From Archangium sp. (GTDB lineage: Bacteria > Myxococcota > Myxococcia > Myxococcales > Myxococcaceae): 57,074 nt of DNA. The DNA lies in NCBI GenBank assembly GCA_030695565.1, contig JAUYRZ010000013.1, positions 1 through 57,074 of the forward strand, given 5' to 3'. The notes below the pieces were generated by a model. That model saw only the letters and a program-made list of their open reading frames with translations. It was not told the DNA's origin and did no database searches. Of this stretch, positions 17,427 to 32,113 are shown piece after piece; positions within the stretch are counted from its first letter, which is position 1; every line of letters starts with the position of its first letter. The position numbers were made by a program, and so were the translations under genes.

Positions 17427-17885
17427 CTACAGGGTGCGCTCGGTCCAGTTGGAGCGCCGGCGCCCCTCTTGTTCGCAGAGCAACCGGGCCAGCGTCTCGG
17501 CCAGCACCGAGGAGGCGTCGGCCTCATACGGCGCAGGCGGCGACGACTGCGAGGTCGACACCGGCTGCGGGCCCAGGTTCACCGTCTGAGGGGTCGCCAT
17601 GTTTGCGTTTCGCGCAAAGACATTTCGCAGCTCGATCATCGCGCGGGTGAAGTCGCAGTCCTGCGTGTCGGGCTGCATGATGAACTTGTCGAACTCGAGT
17701 ACGCGCAAGGTATCGAGCTCGCTGGGTTCCCGGTGGTACCGGCTCACCCAGGAGACCAACGCGCCGCTGTTCATGCCGTGGGGAGCGCCGTAGTTCCGCC
17801 GCGCCCAGTCTCCGAAGCTCTCGGCCGTCAGTTCACGCCGCAACATCAGGATGCAGAGTTCACTCATCGCGAGCGTGTTCTTCAT
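17427..17885 (-). CDS. Uncharacterised protein, tandem paralogue A
   Basis: A 152-residue cytoplasmic protein. Its first 100 residues align with the neighbour at 17924-18238 without gaps, at roughly half identity. Shared blocks are (G/S)ELC-LML-R-LT-(E/D)SF, W-RR-YG-P, LDTLRVLEFD and AM-ELRNVFARNAN. The domain looks mainly helical. This copy adds a Pro/Ser/Gln linker and a 50-residue tail ending in ETLARLLCEQEGRRRSNW. There is no signal peptide, membrane segment or catalytic motif that I recognise. The two genes are in the same direction, 38 bases apart, probably one transcript. It could be an adaptor or a signalling domain; no function is claimed. Confidence 0.7.
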   Translation of the reverse strand: MKNTLAMSELCILMLRRELTAESFGDWARRNYGAPHGMNSGALVSWVSRYHREPSELDTLRVLEFDKFIMQPDTQDCDFTRAMIELRNVFARNANMATPQTVNLGPQPVSTSQSSPPAPYEADASSVLAETLARLLCEQEGRRRSNWTERTL

Positions 17886-17923: not shown

Positions 17924-18238
17924 TCACGTGCTCTGACTCTCAGCCGGAGCGATGTTTGCGTTGCGAGCAAACACGTTACGCAGCTCCAGCATGGCGCGCC
18001 TGAAGCCCGAGTCGCGGAGCTCCTGGCCCTGGAGATAGCGGTCGAACTCCAGCACCCGCAACGTGTCGAGGGGGTGCGGTTGCGCATGATGTTTCGCGAC
18101 CAATCGCACCAGCCCTGCGCTGCTCTGGTCTTTGGGCTCCCCGTAATACCGCCGCACCCACCGGGCGAAGCTGTCGGAGGTCAGCTGTCGAAGCAGCATC
18201 AACGTGCACAGTTCGCCCATCGCCGTACGGAATCGCAT
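17924..18238 (-). CDS. Uncharacterised protein, tandem paralogue B
   Basis: A 104-residue protein that is essentially only the domain shared with the downstream paralogue: MGELCTLML near the start, RRYYGEP, LDTLRVLEFDRYL and LELRNVFARNAN at the end. ATG 18238 is used; a second Met at 18220 precedes GELC exactly as in paralogue A, so either may be used. It reads first in the pair. Its 5' end overlaps, on the other strand, the antitoxin-like relic at 18237. The function is unknown. Confidence 0.65.
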   Translation of the reverse strand: MRFRTAMGELCTLMLLRQLTSDSFARWVRRYYGEPKDQSSAGLVRLVAKHHAQPHPLDTLRVLEFDRYLQGQELRDSGFRRAMLELRNVFARNANIAPAESQST

Positions 18239-21728: not shown

Positions 21729-22466
21729 TCAGTTGCAGCGGCCGGCGTTGCACTGCCCCGAGCAGCACTGGCCTTGCGCGGCGCACGGCATTTGCGCGGC
21801 CACGCAACTGCCGCGGCACTGACCGAGCTGACACTGCAGGCCCAGACAACAATCGCCCGACTGGCTGCAGCTCTCCATCGCCTGCCGGCACTGCGAGCGG
21901 CAGGTGAAGGTGTCGGGGCTGCAGAACCCCACGCAGCACTCCGCATCCATTGCGCACGTGACGCCCGCGGCCTTGCAGGTGGAGGAGCGGCAGAGGTTGA
22001 TGTTGCAGGTGCCTTCACAACAATCGCTCTGTTCGATGCACGAGCCCGCGGTCGCCGCGCACGAGGTGGAGCGGCAGAGGTTGCCGATGCAGCTCGAGCC
22101 GGTGCAGCAGTCCGTGGTGTCCACGCAGCTCTGACCGGGCACGCCACACGTGCCGTCACCGGCGCAGCGGTTGTTGAGACAGGTCTTCGAACAACAAATC
22201 GACGAACTCGCGCAGCCGTCGCCACTGGCCGCGCAGCCACAGACGCCGTTGCGGCACAACCCATCGCAACAGTCGGAGTTGAACAGGCACATTTCGCCCG
22301 CGGGCCTGCAGGGCAACAGGCACTGCCCCCCGACACACGAGCCTTCACAACACGCGGCGCTCTCTGCGCAGCTCGCGCGCAACGCCGTGCACGGAGCGGG
22401 CGGCACGATGGTGGGCCCACAGGCGACCAGAGACCAACAGACCGAGGCGAGAGCGAGGTGACGCAC
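21729..22466 (-). CDS. Cys-rich repeat lipoprotein (CC-x-G-x-C modules)
   Basis: A lipoprotein of about 245 residues. The lipobox is SLVACG, with Cys about 16 residues after the GTG at 22466; a TTG at 22502 would give a longer signal, and neither has a clear ribosome site. The mature part is eight or nine modules of 20-25 residues of the form C-x5-6-C-x5-CC-x2-x-C-x3-x-C. Examples are SAACCEGSC, NSDCCDGLC, SDCCEGTC and DAECCVGFC. This resembles knottin/Dickkopf-like Cys repeats and would form several disulphides per module outside the cell. It is divergent from the ceramidase operon, with a gap of about 42 bases. Role: surface structural or protease-resistant protein, inferred. Confidence 0.75.
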   Translation of the reverse strand: MRHLALASVCWSLVACGPTIVPPAPCTALRASCAESAACCEGSCVGGQCLLPCRPAGEMCLFNSDCCDGLCRNGVCGCAASGDGCASSSICCSKTCLNNRCAGDGTCGVPGQSCVDTTDCCTGSSCIGNLCRSTSCAATAGSCIEQSDCCEGTCNINLCRSSTCKAAGVTCAMDAECCVGFCSPDTFTCRSQCRQAMESCSQSGDCCLGLQCQLGQCRGSCVAAQMPCAAQGQCCSGQCNAGRCN

Positions 22467-22508
22467 CGGCGCACGCTGATACGAACGTGGACACGCGCGC
22501 AATACCTG

Positions 22509-24506
22509 ATGAAGCTCCGCCCCATGCGTGTCGGGTGGGTGCTGTTGGTGGGCTGTCTGCTGTCGTCGTGTCTCGCCAATGGTCCCCTGCTCTGGGTACG
22601 CAACAAGGCGCCTGAACCCGCGGTGAGGGTCGACCGGCTCAGAGCGGGCGTCGCGGAGGTCGACCTCACGCCGCCTCCGGGGCTTCCCACGTACGGCTTC
22701 TCGTCAGCGGGTGCAGCGCACGCCGAGGGCTACTGGTTGCGGCTGCGGGGGCGCATCATCGTGCTCCAGTCGGGCACCACGAAGCTGGCCCTGCTGCAGC
22801 TGGACCTGGGGGCGGCGAGCCCGCTGCTTCACCGGAAAATCGCGCAGCGCATCGAACGTTTCGGCATCGCAGCGCCGCAGCTGGTGATGGCCACCGTGCA
22901 CACGCATGGCGGCCCGTCGGCCATCTACGGCGACAAGTTCTTCAACACCGTGGTCGGAGCCGCCGCGAAGTTCGACGAACACCTGGTCGACGCGATGGCC
23001 GACTCACTCGCGAAGGGCGTGGAGACCGCGCTCGGTCAGATGAAAGACGCGCGCGCCGCGTGGGGCCAGGCCCAGGTGCCCGGCCCCGCCAGCTCGAACC
23101 GCAGCCGCGACGCGTGGCTCAACAACTTCGCCGACGGGCGCGTGCCGGGCACCGACATCGACCGCACGCTCACCCTGCTGCGCCTCGATGCCGAAGAGAA
23201 CGGCACCACGTCACCACTCGCGGCGTGGTCGATCTTCGCGGTGCACGGCAACAGCATCGGCCCGGTGCGTGCCGACGAGCCGAAGGCCTCGCTCTTTCAC
23301 GGCGACATTCACGGCCTCGCCGCGCGCCTCACCGCGCGGAAGATCGAACGACGCGCGAACGTGACCGGGTTCCTGGCGGCCACCACCACCGGCGCTGAAG
23401 GCGACGTCACGCCGGGGCCCACACCCGGTGGGCCGCAAGGCCTGACGCTGACCATGTCGGTGGCGGAGTTGATCGCTCAGACCGCAGACCAGCTCCACCA
23501 GAGCCTCGACGAGGCCATCGCCCGGCCCGAAGCCGCGACGGTGCCCATCGCCGTGGTCTACGACGAGACCTCGTTGCGCGGCGCCAACACCACCGAGGGC
23601 CGCTTGTGCCCCAGCGCGTTCCTCGGCGGGCCGCAGATGCGTGGCTCGGAAGAAGGCCGCGGCGTGCCGGGGTGGGCCGCTCCGATTCTGCGCACCGATG
23701 AAGGCATCGTGGATCCGCCTCACGGCTGCACCGCCACCAAGGTCTATGCGCTTGGTCCCCTGGGCCTGCAGGAGATCGCCGTGATGCCGGAAGACTTTCC
23801 CGACGTGGGCACCTTTCAGTTGGTCACCTTCGGTGAACCCGCCACCGGTCTCGCGCTCGCGGGTGTGCCGGGAGAACCGACCACCGAAGTGGGCCGCATG
23901 GTGATGTCGCAGATCGCGCGGGAACGGTGGAGAGGCCCGATCGCCGTGATGGGCCTGACCAACGCGTACCTGCTCTACATCACCACCGGCGCCGAATACC
24001 TCATCCAGGACTACGAAGGCGGCGGCACCATCTTCGGTGGGCACGAAGGCACCTTCGTGGCGGAAGAATTCGGCCGCCTCGCCGCGCGATGGAAGCCGCA
24101 GCAGGTGACCGTCAACGGCTTCGACTCGAACCGCTCCTTCCGGCCCGGAGCGCAGACCGATCTCATTCCCACCAGCAACCCGTGTGAGCCCTCGAAGTGG
24201 TCACCCGGCGCGCTCGACCTCGGCGCGCGACGCATCGTCTTCCACTGGAGCGGCGCGCACGAAGACGAAGCCTGCGCGCTGGCGAAGATTCGCGTGGAGT
24301 GTGGAGGCCAGGTGTTGCTCGGTGAAGGCGGCTTCGCGCAGAACGACGAGGGCTACAGCTTCGAGGTGCGCCGCGAGAAGGGCAACGCGTGGTCAGCGAG
24401 CTGGGCGGTGAACGGCAGCAGCGCTCAGCCTTGCCAGTTCGTGGTCGAGGCCGGCGCCACGCAGGTTCGTTCGAAGACCTTCGAGCTGACGGGGAGCACG
24501 CCATGA
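22509..24506 (+). CDS. Neutral/alkaline ceramidase family lipoprotein
   Basis: A 665-residue protein of the neutral ceramidase family, which hydrolyses the N-acyl bond of ceramide. The signal with lipobox (WVLLVGCLLSSC) suggests a lipid anchor. Family features in order are AGVAEVDLTPPPGLPTYGF, zinc-ligand VHTHGGPS (His131, His133), a second His in AVHGNSIG, GAEGDVTPG, and NAYLLYITTGAEYLIQDYEG with GGGTIFGGHEG. A C-terminal beta-sandwich (about 555-665) is present, as in PaCD-type enzymes. ATG 22509 or 22524 could be the start. The frame is open far upstream but there it lies opposite the Cys-rich lipoprotein. It is first in a three-gene ATGA-coupled operon. Confidence 0.9.
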   Translation: MKLRPMRVGWVLLVGCLLSSCLANGPLLWVRNKAPEPAVRVDRLRAGVAEVDLTPPPGLPTYGFSSAGAAHAEGYWLRLRGRIIVLQSGTTKLALLQLDLGAASPLLHRKIAQRIERFGIAAPQLVMATVHTHGGPSAIYGDKFFNTVVGAAAKFDEHLVDAMADSLAKGVETALGQMKDARAAWGQAQVPGPASSNRSRDAWLNNFADGRVPGTDIDRTLTLLRLDAEENGTTSPLAAWSIFAVHGNSIGPVRADEPKASLFHGDIHGLAARLTARKIERRANVTGFLAATTTGAEGDVTPGPTPGGPQGLTLTMSVAELIAQTADQLHQSLDEAIARPEAATVPIAVVYDETSLRGANTTEGRLCPSAFLGGPQMRGSEEGRGVPGWAAPILRTDEGIVDPPHGCTATKVYALGPLGLQEIAVMPEDFPDVGTFQLVTFGEPATGLALAGVPGEPTTEVGRMVMSQIARERWRGPIAVMGLTNAYLLYITTGAEYLIQDYEGGGTIFGGHEGTFVAEEFGRLAARWKPQQVTVNGFDSNRSFRPGAQTDLIPTSNPCEPSKWSPGALDLGARRIVFHWSGAHEDEACALAKIRVECGGQVLLGEGGFAQNDEGYSFEVRREKGNAWSASWAVNGSSAQPCQFVVEAGATQVRSKTFELTGSTP

Positions 24507-26089
24507 GGCTGCGCTTGATGGCGGCCGCGGTGTTGGCGAGCGCGTGCGTGACGACGACCTGGCGCTACCAGCGCATCGAGGGCGAGGTGGCCAGCATTCA
24601 CCCCGACCTCTGGTACGAGATCGAGTGCACCGGCAAAGAGCCGCTGCGGGGTGATGGGGGCTGCGCCGCCGCGCTCGCACCGGCGGTGAGCTGCGAGACC
24701 CGCCCTGAACTCTGCGCCCAGCTGCCGGGTGGAGGCACGAGCGTGGCCTGCACGGGTTTGGAGCCGCTGCTCAGCTTCGTGCAGCTCAGCGACGTGAAGC
24801 TGCGTGAACACGCGGTGCTGGTGACCGATGAGTCGAGCACTGGACTCCCGAAAGCGCTTGATCAGCAGTACCGCAACGACGACGCGGTGCTGCTCGCCAC
24901 GGTGCTGGGCATCAACCAACTGGGCTCGAGTGGAGCGCCGCTGGGTACCTGCCCTGCCCTCTCCGCGCCGCAGTTCGTCATCCACACGGGGAACTCGGTC
25001 GAGCTCGGCTTGTTCTCCGAGTTGACGCAGTTCATCGGCGGCATGAACGAGCTGGTGATTCCCTGGTTCAACGTGGTGGGTCCCAACGACGTGGCGTTCC
25101 TCGGCGCGCGGCCCAACGAGCGGGTCTCGGGTGCGAACGCGGTGGTGCCCTTTGCACCCATCGCCGACGTGGATCGTTTCATGCGGTTTCATTCACAGAA
25201 GGGCGCGAAGAAAGACGTCAGCCTCCCCAACCCGGATCAACGCACCGCCGACAAGGGTCCGAACAAGACGGGCTGCAGGCTACAGCCGAACGGCCTGTGC
25301 AACCCGGACCCGCGGTATCCCCGCAGCCTCTTCCACGGCTTCGATGTGAACTGCGTGAAGGCGGGCAAGGGTTTGACTCAGCTGGAGGCCGACCTCGACA
25401 CGCTGTGCTCCACGGCGCGCGGCTACTACGCGTTCACCGTGCCTTCGCCCCGTCCGGAGATTTCGTTTCGCGTGGTGGTGCTCAACTCAGCGGAGAGCGT
25501 GCTCGACGATGGAGCCTCCGGCGGCCGCGAGGGCCGCATGCTGCAGGAGCAACTGCGTTGGCTGCAGCGGGAGCTCGACGCGCTTCCTTCGGGAACGTTC
25601 GCGCTGGTCTTCGGTCACCATCCACTGAGCGGCCTGGGCGATTCGGTGCGCGAGCCGTTGACGGACCTGCTGAGCGGTCGACCGCGTGTGCTCGGCTATT
25701 TCCACGGAGGAGAGGGCGACAGCTTCCGCCTGCACGCACGCGACGCCGGGGTGGGCCTTGCCGAAGTGGGCACCGGCGCGCTGCTCGACTTTCCCCAGCT
25801 CGGCCGCGAGGTCGAAGTGCTGCGCGCAGCCGACGGCAGTCTCTCCGTGCGCGTGGCCTCGTTCAGCCAGGGGCCCGCTTCGCGCGCCTTGCCCGACCCG
25901 GCTCCACTGCAGCCCCTGGGCGGAAACTGTGAGCGGTTGAACGACGGCACCAGCTTCTGCCGCAAGCTCAGCTACCGCGCAGGCCGGGGGTTCGAAGCCT
26001 CGCGACAACTCTCGGCCGATGCAGGCCTCAGCCCGGAGAACGCGAACGGCCTCTTCCTCGCGTGGACACCAGAAGGAGCAGCACGATGA
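24503..26089 (+). CDS. Calcineurin-like phosphoesterase lipoprotein
   Basis: A 528-residue exported lipoprotein (MRLRLMAAAVLASAC). Its ATG overlaps the ceramidase stop (ATGA at 24503), so the two are translationally coupled. Motifs resemble calcineurin-like metallophosphoesterases: LSFVQLSDVKL near 90-100, HTGNSVE near 155-161 where the family has GDNxD/E, and FGHHPLSGLGD near 373-384. The usual GDxVD is altered and the final GHxH is not clear (GYFHGGEGD), so activity is uncertain. Cysteines in the inserted middle region (about 250-300) suggest disulphides. The substrate is unknown; the operon context suggests a phospholipid or sphingolipid-related phosphate. Confidence 0.7.
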   Translation: MRLRLMAAAVLASACVTTTWRYQRIEGEVASIHPDLWYEIECTGKEPLRGDGGCAAALAPAVSCETRPELCAQLPGGGTSVACTGLEPLLSFVQLSDVKLREHAVLVTDESSTGLPKALDQQYRNDDAVLLATVLGINQLGSSGAPLGTCPALSAPQFVIHTGNSVELGLFSELTQFIGGMNELVIPWFNVVGPNDVAFLGARPNERVSGANAVVPFAPIADVDRFMRFHSQKGAKKDVSLPNPDQRTADKGPNKTGCRLQPNGLCNPDPRYPRSLFHGFDVNCVKAGKGLTQLEADLDTLCSTARGYYAFTVPSPRPEISFRVVVLNSAESVLDDGASGGREGRMLQEQLRWLQRELDALPSGTFALVFGHHPLSGLGDSVREPLTDLLSGRPRVLGYFHGGEGDSFRLHARDAGVGLAEVGTGALLDFPQLGREVEVLRAADGSLSVRVASFSQGPASRALPDPAPLQPLGGNCERLNDGTSFCRKLSYRAGRGFEASRQLSADAGLSPENANGLFLAWTPEGAAR

Positions 26090-26346
26090 GCAATCTCGAG
26101 GTGAAGGTGGCGATCACGAAGGCGTTCGAGCCCTACTGCCGCGGCTTCTGCAAAGAAGTGGCGCGCCTCGAGGTCAACGTGATGGACGAGTTCGTCAACG
26201 GCCACCTGTTTCTCTCGGCGGCGGATCTCGCAGCGATCGACCCCGGGGAGATCGCCAACAACCTGCACACCTGCTTCGACCTCCTCGGTAAGGAATTGGG
26301 CGAAGGGCGTGAGCGGCTGGGCCTGGACCTCGTGCCCAAGCCCTGA
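26086..26346 (+). CDS. Small hypothetical protein of the ceramidase operon
   Basis: An 86-residue protein (MSNLEVKVAITKAFEPYC) whose ATG overlaps the preceding stop (ATGA at 26086), the second such overlap in this operon. No signal peptide is present. The sequence is mostly helical and acidic, with two Cys in YCRGFC and one later, and a repeated pattern of hydrophobic heptads. I recognise no family. Coupled translation with two exported proteins suggests a cytoplasmic accessory role. Confidence 0.7.
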   Translation: MSNLEVKVAITKAFEPYCRGFCKEVARLEVNVMDEFVNGHLFLSAADLAAIDPGEIANNLHTCFDLLGKELGEGRERLGLDLVPKP

Positions 26347-27595: not shown

Positions 27596-28192
27596 GTGCT
27601 CTCGAACCTGCTCATCGCCACCCTCCTCCTCGTTTCCAGTGAAACCCCGGAGGAGCCCGCGTGGAAGGCCATGCGCACGGTCGATGGGCTCACCATCTCG
27701 GCGCGTGAGGTCAACGGCTCGCACTTCGAAGAGGTGATGGTGACCACCCTCAGCATGCAGCCGCTGGCGGCGTTGTGCGACGCCGTGTGGGGCCGCGACG
27801 CGAAGGTCGAAGGGCACTTCAAGAAGCGCGTGGTGATTCGGGAGAGCCACTCCGAGCGGTGGACCTACGAGCAGCTCAAGGTGCCCATCGTGACCGACCG
27901 CGACATCGTGGTGCACTCGCAGCTGGTCGCCTCGGCGGACACCGGGCGGTGTGAAGTGCTCTTCGAGACGGGCACTGACCCCGACTTTCCGAAGACGCGC
28001 GATCACGTGCGAGTCACGTCACTGCGCGGCCGCTGGACCCTGGAGCCGACCACCGACGGAAAAGTCGCCATCACGTACACGGTGTACAGCGAGCCCGGCG
28101 GGAAGATCCCCGCGTGGATGGCGCGGGGTGGCCAGCGCGACGCGGCGCTCATCTTCATGAAGACCATTCTCTCGCGCGCGGCGGGCCCGTGA
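27596..28192 (+). CDS. START/lipid-transfer domain protein with signal peptide
   Basis: A 198-residue protein. The start is GTG 27596; a short signal (LSNLLIATLLLVSS) precedes a START-like domain: WKAMRTVDGLTISAREVNGS, then VWGRDAKVEGHFKKRVV, VPIVTDRDIVVHSQLV, and the helix WMARGGQRDAALIFMKTIL at the end, which in START domains caps the lipid cavity. Exported START proteins occur in myxobacteria and related taxa and are thought to carry lipids. It is translationally coupled to the GH38-like gene by a GTGA overlap at 28189. Confidence 0.75.
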   Translation: MLSNLLIATLLLVSSETPEEPAWKAMRTVDGLTISAREVNGSHFEEVMVTTLSMQPLAALCDAVWGRDAKVEGHFKKRVVIRESHSERWTYEQLKVPIVTDRDIVVHSQLVASADTGRCEVLFETGTDPDFPKTRDHVRVTSLRGRWTLEPTTDGKVAITYTVYSEPGGKIPAWMARGGQRDAALIFMKTILSRAAGP

Positions 28193-30558
28193 AGGAGGCA
28201 GCGCTCCGGCAGTCGCTCGGGGTGCCTGCGGCGGCGAAGCGGGTGATGCTCTTCGTGGAGAGCAGCCACTGGGACACCAACTGGCTGTCGACCTCGGAGG
28301 AGTATTTCGCCGACCGCGTCGAGCCCATCTTCGACACGGTGATCGCCGCGCTGAAGGCAGAGCCCACGCGGGTGTACTGCATCGAGAGCGTCTTCTTCTT
28401 GAAGCGCTACTGGGAGAGCCGGCCCGATTCGCACGCCCCGCTGCGTGACCTGTTCGCGCGCCGGCAGCTGCGGTTGATGGCGAACTCCTTCACCACGCCC
28501 GACACGCTGCTGCCCCATGCAGAGACCGTGCTGCGCGACTTTCAGCTCGGCCATGAATGGCTCAAGGCGCAGGGCCTGCCCGACGCACCCGGCACCGCGT
28601 ATTTCCCCGACAACTTCGGCCACTCACCGCACCTGCCGTCGTTGATGCAGTCGGTGGGCGTGCACAGCGTCGCGCTCACCCGCATCGACGGCATGTACTT
28701 CATCGGCGCAGATTGGAAGCTGAAGAGCCGATTCCCGCTGCCCAGCTCGACCGCTGAGCTGCTGGAGAAGATTCACCGCTCGCACGACTTCGTGTGGCGC
28801 GACAACAGCGGCGCCGAGGTGCTCTGCCATTGGAACGCGCACACGTATTTTCTGGGCGACATGCTGGCCCACAAGGGCGTCATTCGCTGGGCGGGCAAGA
28901 CCTTCGCGTTGCCCTGGCGCACGCGCCGTCACATCGCCTCTCGCATCGATGGCTACTGCGCGAGCCTCGAACCCTTCGCGCGCACGCCGTACCTGCTGTG
29001 CCCCATCGGGATGGACTTCAACGATCCCATCGAGGGGCTGACGGGCCTGCTGCAGCGGTACAACCACGAGCGCTCTCCGCAGACCGGCACCTGGGCGGTG
29101 GTGGCCGGGCTCGATGACGCCTTCGCGTTGATCGACTGTCATCGCGCGGCGCTGCCGGTGCTGGAGGCGGATCCCAACCCGTATTGGATGGGCTTCCTCG
29201 CCACGCGGCCCGAGGTAAAGCAGCGCCCCAACCGCATCGCGAAGAAGCTGCTGCTGGCTGAGCGGATCTCTTCCGTGCACGCGGTGGATCCGGTGCTGGA
29301 GAAGTCGCTGAGTGAGGCGTGGAGCAAGCTCGTGCTCAGCAATCACCACGACTACATCCCCGGCACGTCACCTGACCGGGTGTGGGAAGCAGAGCAGAAG
29401 CCGTGGCTCGACCTCGCGGAGGCCGCCGCGGATCACTCGTTGTCGTTGGTGCGGAAGACCCAGGGAACTTTGAATCGGCGTGGTGTGGCGGGCGCCATCG
29501 GCATCGATGATCGCGGGCAGTCGATGCTGCTGGAGACGGCGCACTTCAAGCTGACCGTCTCGCGCGCCGATGGGGGGTGCCTGGCGTCGTTCGTCACGGG
29601 TGACGGCGAGCTGCTGAAGGGGCTCGGCTTCGACTTGCTCTCGTTTCACGACGACGGGGGTCTGTGGCGTCTGGGGCACGAGTTCGTCGGCGGGCGCTTC
29701 GAAGAAGTCGAACGTGCCAGTCAGCGCCCATCGCGCGTGCACGTCGTGCGTCACGGCTCGCAGGTCACGGTGCGCGTGCACTCCGAGTTGGGTGGGGAGC
29801 GTTTCCTGCGCCGGCTCGACTTCGAGGCCGACTCACCGCTGCTGCGCCTCACCACGCGCGGCATTGCACGACCGCGCACGACGCTCACGTGCCGCTTCGA
29901 GGTCGCCGTCGTGCCCGAGTCACTGGAGATGGACACCGTGGGTGGGGAGATCGCGCGGCCTCGCGAGCGGCAGTACAGCCCCACGTTCTGGGCCGTGCCT
30001 TCCCGGCTCACGCTCGACGACGGCAAGGTGCTGCACGCGCTGTTCGAGTCACCTTCGGCGGTGTCGGTGGGGCCGACCGGTGCGCTGGAGTGGATCGTCG
30101 CTCGCAACGCACCCAAGGAGCGCGCGTTTGGTTGGCTGCCGGTGCTCGCTCACCCGATCGGCGGCACGAACCCTGACGTGCAGGTGCATCACGCGGCGCT
30201 GATGGGCCGGGGTGAGCTCGCTCCGGCCCGGCGGGCGCTGGAGCTGCACTGGTTGCCTGAGGATCACCGCGAGGCTTCGGAGCACGCGGAGGATTTCGTG
30301 CAGTGCGATCACGGCGCGGTGACCATCAAGTCGGTGCGACGTTCAGGTGGAGGGATGACGGTTCGGCTCTACCGGGAGGAGCCACTGCCGGGTCCGGTGC
30401 GGGTGTGGCTCAAAGAGCGAGGCGTGACGGAGGCGTGGATCTGCGACGCGCTCGACCGGCAGTTGGAGTCGTTGAAGGTCGATGGGGATGGGCGCGTGGT
30501 GGTGCCGCTCGCTTCGCGCCTGACGTCGGTTCGATTCGAGGGCGTGCGGTCGAGCTGA
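28189..30558 (+). CDS. GH38-type alpha-mannosidase-like glycoside hydrolase
   Basis: A 789-residue protein starting at GTG 28189. It shows the metal-binding H-x-D of GH38 in ESSHWDTNW (His27, Asp29), the nucleophile segment YFPDNFGHSPHLP with Asp141, and the conserved NHHDYIPGTS (386-388) that matches the HHD-GTS motif of the family. The C-terminal part (about 440-789) is beta-rich, as in GH38 mannosidases. There is no signal peptide, unlike many; with the START gene coupled upstream, a cytoplasmic enzyme acting on a mannosylated lipid or glycan is possible. It could also be a related GH38-like family with another specificity. Confidence 0.82.
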   Translation: MKEAALRQSLGVPAAAKRVMLFVESSHWDTNWLSTSEEYFADRVEPIFDTVIAALKAEPTRVYCIESVFFLKRYWESRPDSHAPLRDLFARRQLRLMANSFTTPDTLLPHAETVLRDFQLGHEWLKAQGLPDAPGTAYFPDNFGHSPHLPSLMQSVGVHSVALTRIDGMYFIGADWKLKSRFPLPSSTAELLEKIHRSHDFVWRDNSGAEVLCHWNAHTYFLGDMLAHKGVIRWAGKTFALPWRTRRHIASRIDGYCASLEPFARTPYLLCPIGMDFNDPIEGLTGLLQRYNHERSPQTGTWAVVAGLDDAFALIDCHRAALPVLEADPNPYWMGFLATRPEVKQRPNRIAKKLLLAERISSVHAVDPVLEKSLSEAWSKLVLSNHHDYIPGTSPDRVWEAEQKPWLDLAEAAADHSLSLVRKTQGTLNRRGVAGAIGIDDRGQSMLLETAHFKLTVSRADGGCLASFVTGDGELLKGLGFDLLSFHDDGGLWRLGHEFVGGRFEEVERASQRPSRVHVVRHGSQVTVRVHSELGGERFLRRLDFEADSPLLRLTTRGIARPRTTLTCRFEVAVVPESLEMDTVGGEIARPRERQYSPTFWAVPSRLTLDDGKVLHALFESPSAVSVGPTGALEWIVARNAPKERAFGWLPVLAHPIGGTNPDVQVHHAALMGRGELAPARRALELHWLPEDHREASEHAEDFVQCDHGAVTIKSVRRSGGGMTVRLYREEPLPGPVRVWLKERGVTEAWICDALDRQLESLKVDGDGRVVVPLASRLTSVRFEGVRSS

Positions 30559-31396: not shown

Positions 31397-31536
31397 AGGG
31401 CCTTCGCCGCGCGGGGCCGTCCGTCGACGAGTCAGTGGAGACGGCCGCCCACTTCGCCGTCTTCGGGGCCGCAGGCGTGGTCGTCATCGGGGGCTTGATC
31501 GCGCTGGCGTTGAGGAAGCGAGAGCCACGTCAGTGA
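31390..31536 (+). CDS. Small single-helix membrane protein
   Basis: A 48-residue frame from ATG 31390, overlapping the stop of the frameshifted gene by 7 bases. One transmembrane helix (VFGAAGVVVIGGLIALAL) sits between a hydrophilic N-terminus and a positively charged end (RKREPRQ). The overlap suggests co-translation with the upstream gene. Its 3' end overlaps the toxin gene on the other strand by 7 bases. It is too short to assign; the hydrophobic pattern and start position support it modestly. Confidence 0.4.
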   Translation: MVKGLRRAGPSVDESVETAAHFAVFGAAGVVVIGGLIALALRKREPRQ

Positions 31537-31838
31537 TAGTCACTCTCGCGCTGGTGGCGCACCGCGAGAATCGTCACCACGTCATCGCCCTCGATCTCGA
31601 ACAGCGCGACGTAGCCACGCTTCCCGAAGGGAATGACGAGCTCGCGGAAGCGTGAGCGAGAGATGGCGGTCGACGCGCGGCACGACCATGGAAACTCTTC
31701 GAGCAACGAAAGCGCCCGCTCGATGGTGGCCAGCGCCGACTCGGCCGCAGTGCTCGAGTGCGCGGCGAGAAAGGCATGCAGTTCGAGAAGATCCTCTCTC
31801 GCCGCGTCAGTGAAGCGGACCTCGTAGCGGCCACTCAC
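31530..31838 (-). CDS. ParE/RelE-family toxin
   Basis: A 102-residue protein of the ParE/RelE superfamily: YEVRFTDAAREDLLELHAFL at the N-terminus, then ERALSLLEEFP, CRASTAISRSRFRELVIPFG with the conserved RELVIPFGKRGYVALFEI core, and VVTILAVRHQRE at the end. ParE toxins inhibit gyrase; RelE relatives cut mRNA, and sequence alone does not choose between them. It overlaps the antitoxin by 4 bases (31835-31838) and follows it, the normal order for parDE pairs. Confidence 0.85.
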   Translation of the reverse strand: MSGRYEVRFTDAAREDLLELHAFLAAHSSTAAESALATIERALSLLEEFPWSCRASTAISRSRFRELVIPFGKRGYVALFEIEGDDVVTILAVRHQRESDYH

Positions 31839-32113
31839 CGTCGCTTGCCATGATTCTTCCGCGCCGCGCGCGTCTGCACCTTGAGTTCTCGCAATACCGA
31901 AGCAGCACTGTGATAGCGCCCAGTCTTCTTGCTCTCGGCGCGTGAAGCCAACGCTCGGGCGCCAAACTCGGCATCCGCGAGCCGCCGGTCGACGCTGTCT
32001 CGGACGGCACGTTCAACGAACGTCGAGATCGTCTCGCCGGGTTCGAGGAGGCGCTCGACGTCTTTTCGAAGCTGAGGTTCGACCCGGAGCGGAGGGATGG
32101 TCGCGGTCTTCAT
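31835..32113 (-). CDS. Ribbon-helix-helix antitoxin (YlcI/YnfO-like)
   Basis: A 92-residue protein, first in the pair. IPPLRVEPQLRKDVERLLEP and ETISTFVERAVRDSVDRRLA fit a ribbon-helix-helix DNA-binding domain of the YlcI/YnfO type often paired with ParE-like toxins. The remaining 40 basic residues (RYHSAASVLREL) would wrap the toxin. ATG 32113 lies 9 bases from a perfect palindrome, suggesting self-repression by the antitoxin or the complex. Confidence 0.8.
   Translation of the reverse strand: MKTATIPPLRVEPQLRKDVERLLEPGETISTFVERAVRDSVDRRLADAEFGARALASRAESKKTGRYHSAASVLRELKVQTRAARKNHGKRR

Follow-up and report, generated by a model that had tools for sequence, protein, structure and literature searches.

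The stretch of DNA analysed here, termed the window, comprises 57,074 nucleotides of Archangium sp. (Myxococcota; GenBank assembly GCA_030695565.1, contig JAUYRZ010000013.1, positions 1 to 57,074 of the forward strand), and our subject is a row of three of its genes, A, B and C. A first-pass annotation had proposed that these form a coupled operon for a neutral ceramidase, a phosphoesterase-like lipoprotein and a small helical protein, with ATGA overlaps at both junctions and export signals in the first two products only. The open reading frames (ORFs) agree exactly with that layout, and direct reading of the sequence confirms the shared strand, both overlaps and the presence of lipoboxes in A (LSSC, Cys21) and B (LASAC, Cys15), with none in C; the lipoboxes were read by eye, not by a signal-peptide program. 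The features are as follows.

22509..24506, + strand: gene A (665 amino acids), a lipoprotein belonging to the neutral/alkaline ceramidase family, with an alternative ATG at 22524
24503..26089, + strand: gene B (528 amino acids), a lipoprotein that descends from a calcineurin-like metallophosphoesterase and has lost the metal site
26086..26346, + strand: gene C, small protein of 86 amino acids, without a signal peptide and without a known family
24503..24506, + strand: overlap of the A stop and the B start, ATGA GCCATGAGG, read from the sequence
26086..26089, + strand: overlap of the B stop and the C start, ATGA ACGATGAGC, read from the sequence

Third-position G+C is 0.86, 0.83 and 0.87 in A, B and C, respectively (0.84-0.90 in the neighbouring genes), and overall G+C is 0.69, 0.67 and 0.63 (window 0.68). 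The third-position values, together with homologues of all three genes in two other genomes, support their assignment as genuine coding genes. ATGA overlaps are common in bacteria, and those observed here suggest translational coupling of the trio. A sigma-70 scan gave no promoter-like site.

Recurrence of the trio

The same gene order recurs in two other genomes, in keeping with the proposed coupled unit, in which two lipoproteins, one ceramidase-like and the other derived from a phosphoesterase, are accompanied by a small protein. L068, a Polyangiaceae metagenome-assembled genome (MAG; 38% identical over B), was found in a genome-contig search that used B aligned to its closest relative in the window's phylum, and carries homologues of all three genes side by side, with order and shared strand unchanged; L110, of the same family as L068, came from a family search and is the third case, with the three genes again adjoining in this order. 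Identities for the pairs window-L068, window-L110 and L068-L110 are 43.7, 42.8 and 48.6% for A, 40.1, 41.0 and 47.2% for B, and 25.9, 29.3 and 29.1% for C, respectively. The A/B junction is a 4-base overlap in all three genomes (ATGA in the window and L068, GTGA in L110); the B/C overlap is found in the window only, the B-C spacing being 6 bases in L068 and 12 in L110.

In a tree of 39 ceramidases (47 family hits, reduced to 45 rows, window included, by a length filter and to 39 by removal of duplicates), the three trio ceramidases form one clade with 100/100 support, albeit with a long-branch warning there. Related genomes with a ceramidase that lacks B and C, named as counter-evidence by the first-pass annotation, are many, but their ceramidases, where placed in the tree, belong to other clades, and 3/3 members of the trio clade are accompanied by both genes. 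In 15 other ceramidase neighbourhoods, a motif-bearing phosphoesterase was present once, more than 5 kb away, and was adjacent in none. The order shared with two other genomes and the ceramidase clade thus indicate that the three genes are not lined up by accident. An account in which the genes are neighbours by chance or through general operon packing, with no joint function, may appeal to the frequency of ATGA overlaps, to the weak conservation of C and to the restriction of the trio to three genomes; it is nevertheless very unlikely, given an order kept despite divergence to approximately 43% identity in A, 40% in B and 26-29% in C, and given that no such pairing was seen in the 15 other neighbourhoods.

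Some related arrangements were also observed. In L068, a fourth gene (L068:8016-8939, +) overlaps C; its product is a lipoprotein that matches the CAP domain weakly, at 20.3 bits against a cut-off of 21.1, and the gene has no counterpart after C in the window. At L111:776-2154 (-), in genome G445, a ceramidase-family gene is followed on the same strand by genes for a 160-amino-acid putative lipoprotein and for an unrelated phosphoesterase of the calcineurin-like type, its motifs intact; this ceramidase is 40% identical to L068 A, lies outside the trio clade, has neither B nor C beside it, and perhaps represents an independent pairing. In a Planctomycetota MAG (L074:5266-7778, +), an intact relative of B is followed by a small gene of 83 amino acids.

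The ceramidase-like lipoprotein and the small protein

Gene A passes the Pfam model PF04734 (129.4 bits, gathering cut-off 32.1), and its relatives of solved structure in the PDB are the neutral ceramidases 4wgk and 2zws; A nevertheless stands at a large distance from characterised ceramidases. The alignment reveals that A keeps the zinc-ligand/catalytic positions H131/H133, R198, H246, E456, Y490 and Y502, the zinc positions being labelled after the ligands of the Pseudomonas ceramidase. In human ASAH2, His196, Arg257, Tyr579 and Tyr591 are critical and Ser354 stabilises Arg257, according to the excerpted text of a review (PMC6952831). The serine that characterised neutral ceramidases have in the amidase motif GDVSPN is replaced by Thr301 in window A (GDVTPG), by glycine in L068 (GDVGPG) and by alanine in L110 (GDVAPG); a form with threonine, GDVTPN, is frequent among other members of the family in the alignment. 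All three trio ceramidases score far below the cut-off of the NCBIfam neutral ceramidase equivalog NF041649 (76.5 bits for window A, 125 for L068 and 118 for L110, compared with 1200). Because of this low score and the replacement of the motif serine, the substrate of A may not be ceramide; ceramide is likely but not assured, and a sphingolipid substrate for the trio enzymes is plausible. The window genome carries two further ceramidase-family genes (on C130 and C44), which are placed elsewhere in the ceramidase tree.

The product of gene C has no Pfam match over cut-off, and its homologues occupy the equivalent place in L068 and L110. The score of C with its L110 counterpart was reached by 0/5000 shuffles in both local and global alignment, and that with L068 by 23/5000 locally and 0/5000 globally; BLASTP of window C against the L068 small protein gave no match, but a profile of the L068 and L110 proteins finds window C (E 0.0028 among shuffles, 0.0021 among 2304 ORFs). 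These comparisons argue that C encodes a genuine small protein, one that evolves fast and belongs to no known family. Its description as helical held only in part, the predicted fold being mixed alpha/beta (helix-strand-strand-helix) in a weak model with a predicted local distance difference test score (pLDDT) of 54.7. Because it has no signal, C should remain in the cytosol.

The metal site of lipoprotein B

In the excerpted text of PMC11708047, the ligands of one binuclear metallophosphoesterase are given as Asp55, His57, Asp101, Asn135, His238, His269 and His271. At these seven positions window B has D97, K99, N164, P194, H372/H373, G403 and G405, i.e. 2/7 are kept, and the losses comprise the bridging Asp (N164), the Asn-His of the GNH motif (P194, N195) and both histidines of GHxH (G403, G405). 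The first-pass statement that B lacks some metal ligands was thus correct as to the loss but understated its extent, since most are gone; the complete loss that it had set against its own proposal is nearly reached, two positions remaining. By contrast, B of both L068 and L110 has D, Q, D, N, H, H and H, the sole change being His to Gln in DxH. Our ligand table of B relatives contains 38 rows, with the window's own copy (L083) and duplicates left out and fragments entering a count only if they carry letters at the position; among lettered rows, counted by eye, GD is present in 34/35, GNH in 34/35 and [GA]HxH in 35/36, and window B is the exception in each case.

Profile searches are consistent with this picture. 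Window B matches no Pfam family up to E 1, PF00149 included, whereas B of L068 and L110 matches PF00149 (45.7 and 39.9 bits, cut-off 21.5). Scores with TIGR03767 are 35.1 for window B, 62 for L068, 56.2 for L110 and 90.9 for L069, all below the cut-off of 330.75. The structure model of B is poor (pLDDT 36.6), and searches of the window genome with the B protein and the A2 profile found no second B relative. Judged by its sequence, window B is catalytically dead.

Despite these losses, the frame of B is unbroken across 528 codons. Identity between the window and its relatives is 40-41% for B, compared with 47% for L068-L110, and 43-44% compared with 49% for A; the deficit of B is close to that of A, which implies at most slightly faster decay of B. 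Because the metal motifs are lost while the frame is open and the identity deficit is only slightly larger than that of A, B looks like a retained pseudoenzyme, which fits better than plain decay. Decay would mean that this lineage can dispense with the phosphoesterase step, that B is drifting, and that the frame is kept only since translation or expression of C depends on B. This possible but doubtful account draws on the alteration, in the window only, of all metal motifs except GHH, on the lack of a close relative in which a dead form of B is conserved, and on the larger identity deficit; it sits less well with 528 codons free of stops and frameshifts, with the retained lipobox and tight overlaps, and with an overall identity to relatives near that of A.

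The first-pass suggestion that B may be an enzyme of changed activity was not supported for the window genome in the face of the losses at N164, P194, N195, G403 and G405. In favour of a newly gained activity, or of a modified site for one metal formed by D97, H372/H373 and H401, are the two surviving ligand positions and the location of H401 two residues ahead of a lost GHxH histidine, but no new ligand set is visible and the structure model is of too low quality for a judgement; we regard this alternative as improbable.

Rarity, proposed role and known counterparts

The trio is a very rare unit. Within the window's phylum, 0/194 other genomes, including five from its genus, contained trio-type genes. 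Over all 195 phylum genomes, the A protein has matches in 66 at E 1e-15 (the best beyond the window's own gene at 4.7e-37), the B protein in six at 1e-3 (own included), and the A2 profile in 26 at 1e-10 (own included), the last being general B relatives; the C protein at E 0.1 matches in 8/195, of which only the window's own gene is convincing, the other seven lying at E 0.05-0.1. We considered a wide spread of the trio in the phylum and ruled it out; matches of the A protein outside its own gene fall outside the trio clade where placed in the tree. Among 377 genomes sampled from the phylum of L068, a search for trio-type B at 1e-10 gave two matches, L068 itself and a distant one in G299 (5.6e-11), and the C profile gave L068's own genome and one weak match at 0.003. 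In the order of L068, 2/183 genomes have trio-type B, and in its family a search for trio-type A at 1e-40 gave matches in 3/108, namely the two trio carriers and G445. Scans of genome contigs with the B protein alone and of viral contigs confirmed 0/30 and 0/32 stretches, respectively, and a plasmid scan gave two records with weak ceramidase matches only. This distribution may stem from a transfer of the trio to the lineage of the window or from its loss in many others. In the same-genus genome G069, the glycosyltransferase gene that lies downstream of the trio in the window has a counterpart (72%) that is not flanked by the window's neighbours, and no clean empty site was observed.

In the window, this convergent glycosyltransferase gene terminates 2 bases past C, and beyond it lie a START/polyketide-cyclase-like gene and then a family 38 alpha-mannosidase gene (27596-30558, +). 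Upstream of the trio, a divergent gene (21729-22469, -) encodes a cysteine-rich lipoprotein with many CCxGxC-like repeats, the best Pfam match of which is I2-superfamily conotoxin (39.8 bits, cut-off 27); the match most likely reflects a common cysteine pattern, not a toxin. Further away are a ParE-type toxin gene (31530-32113, -; ParE 60.4 bits) overlapping a small upstream gene, which may encode the antitoxin, and two adjoining small proteins, apparent paralogues with no Pfam match (17427-17885 and 17924-18238, -).

On balance, we lean towards a surface lipid-degrading unit in which the phosphoesterase of the window is dead and kept as a non-catalytic partner. The trio would be a rare inherited unit acting on lipids at the cell surface, either the cell's own or those of prey, with A, a lipoprotein-anchored member of the neutral ceramidase family, as a zinc-dependent hydrolase of N-acyl amides. 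In L068 and L110, the intact, lipid-anchored B may remove a phosphate or phospho-headgroup before A cleaves off the acyl chain, whereas in the window genome B, without its binuclear metal site, may serve as a non-catalytic partner that, for example, positions A or the lipid. C would be made together with A and B, stay cytosolic, and perhaps act in regulation or folding. Several points weigh against this proposal: the equivalog score of A and the replacement of its motif serine; the comparison of B, which rests on three trio genomes, too few for a selection test; the chance that B is a pseudogene at an early stage, its frame not yet broken; and the retention of D97, H372/H373 and nearby H401 as a candidate single-metal site. 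More speculatively, and with less than even probability, the products may form a surface complex in which B became, in one lineage, a non-catalytic subunit of a divergent ceramidase and the new-family cytosolic protein C senses or controls the complex; if so, the trio would provide a natural before-and-after pair for the origin of a pseudoenzyme inside an operon. The presence of intact and dead B in one operon type makes possible a direct test, as to whether dead B raises ceramidase activity and live B shares the lipid.

The first-pass annotation did not recognise the trio as a described system, and our searches of open-licence literature likewise found no published description of a lipid-anchored ceramidase-like enzyme with a calcineurin-like partner and a small protein. 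Successive action of ceramidases and phosphoesterases on sphingolipids is itself already known. With neutral ceramidases (PF04734; Pseudomonas aeruginosa 2zws, human ASAH2 4wgk), A shares the profile, the zinc, arginine and tyrosine positions and predicted export, but it differs in being a lipoprotein, in the replaced motif serine, in scoring far below the NF041649 cut-off and in belonging to a three-gene unit. TIGR03767-type secreted metallophosphoesterases of the PF00149 superfamily, discussed in the excerpted text of PMC9723661 in connection with organic-phosphate solubilisation, resemble B of L068 and L110, which keep the ligands and match PF00149 and of which window B is a homologue; all trio B proteins are nonetheless far below the TIGR03767 cut-off, and window B lacks most metal ligands and any Pfam match. 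The proposed removal of a headgroup followed by deacylation is like the sequential action of sphingomyelinase and ceramidase, as presented in the available parts of reports on Tenacibaculum maritimum (PMC5561996) and P. aeruginosa (PMC5150637). In T. maritimum, again as given in the available part of PMC5561996, the two enzymes are encoded at distant locus numbers (MARIT_1748 and MARIT_2033) and the sphingomyelinase is of the Bacillus cereus type, whereas the trio has a calcineurin-like partner encoded within one operon, and the window version of this partner is inactive as judged from its residues.

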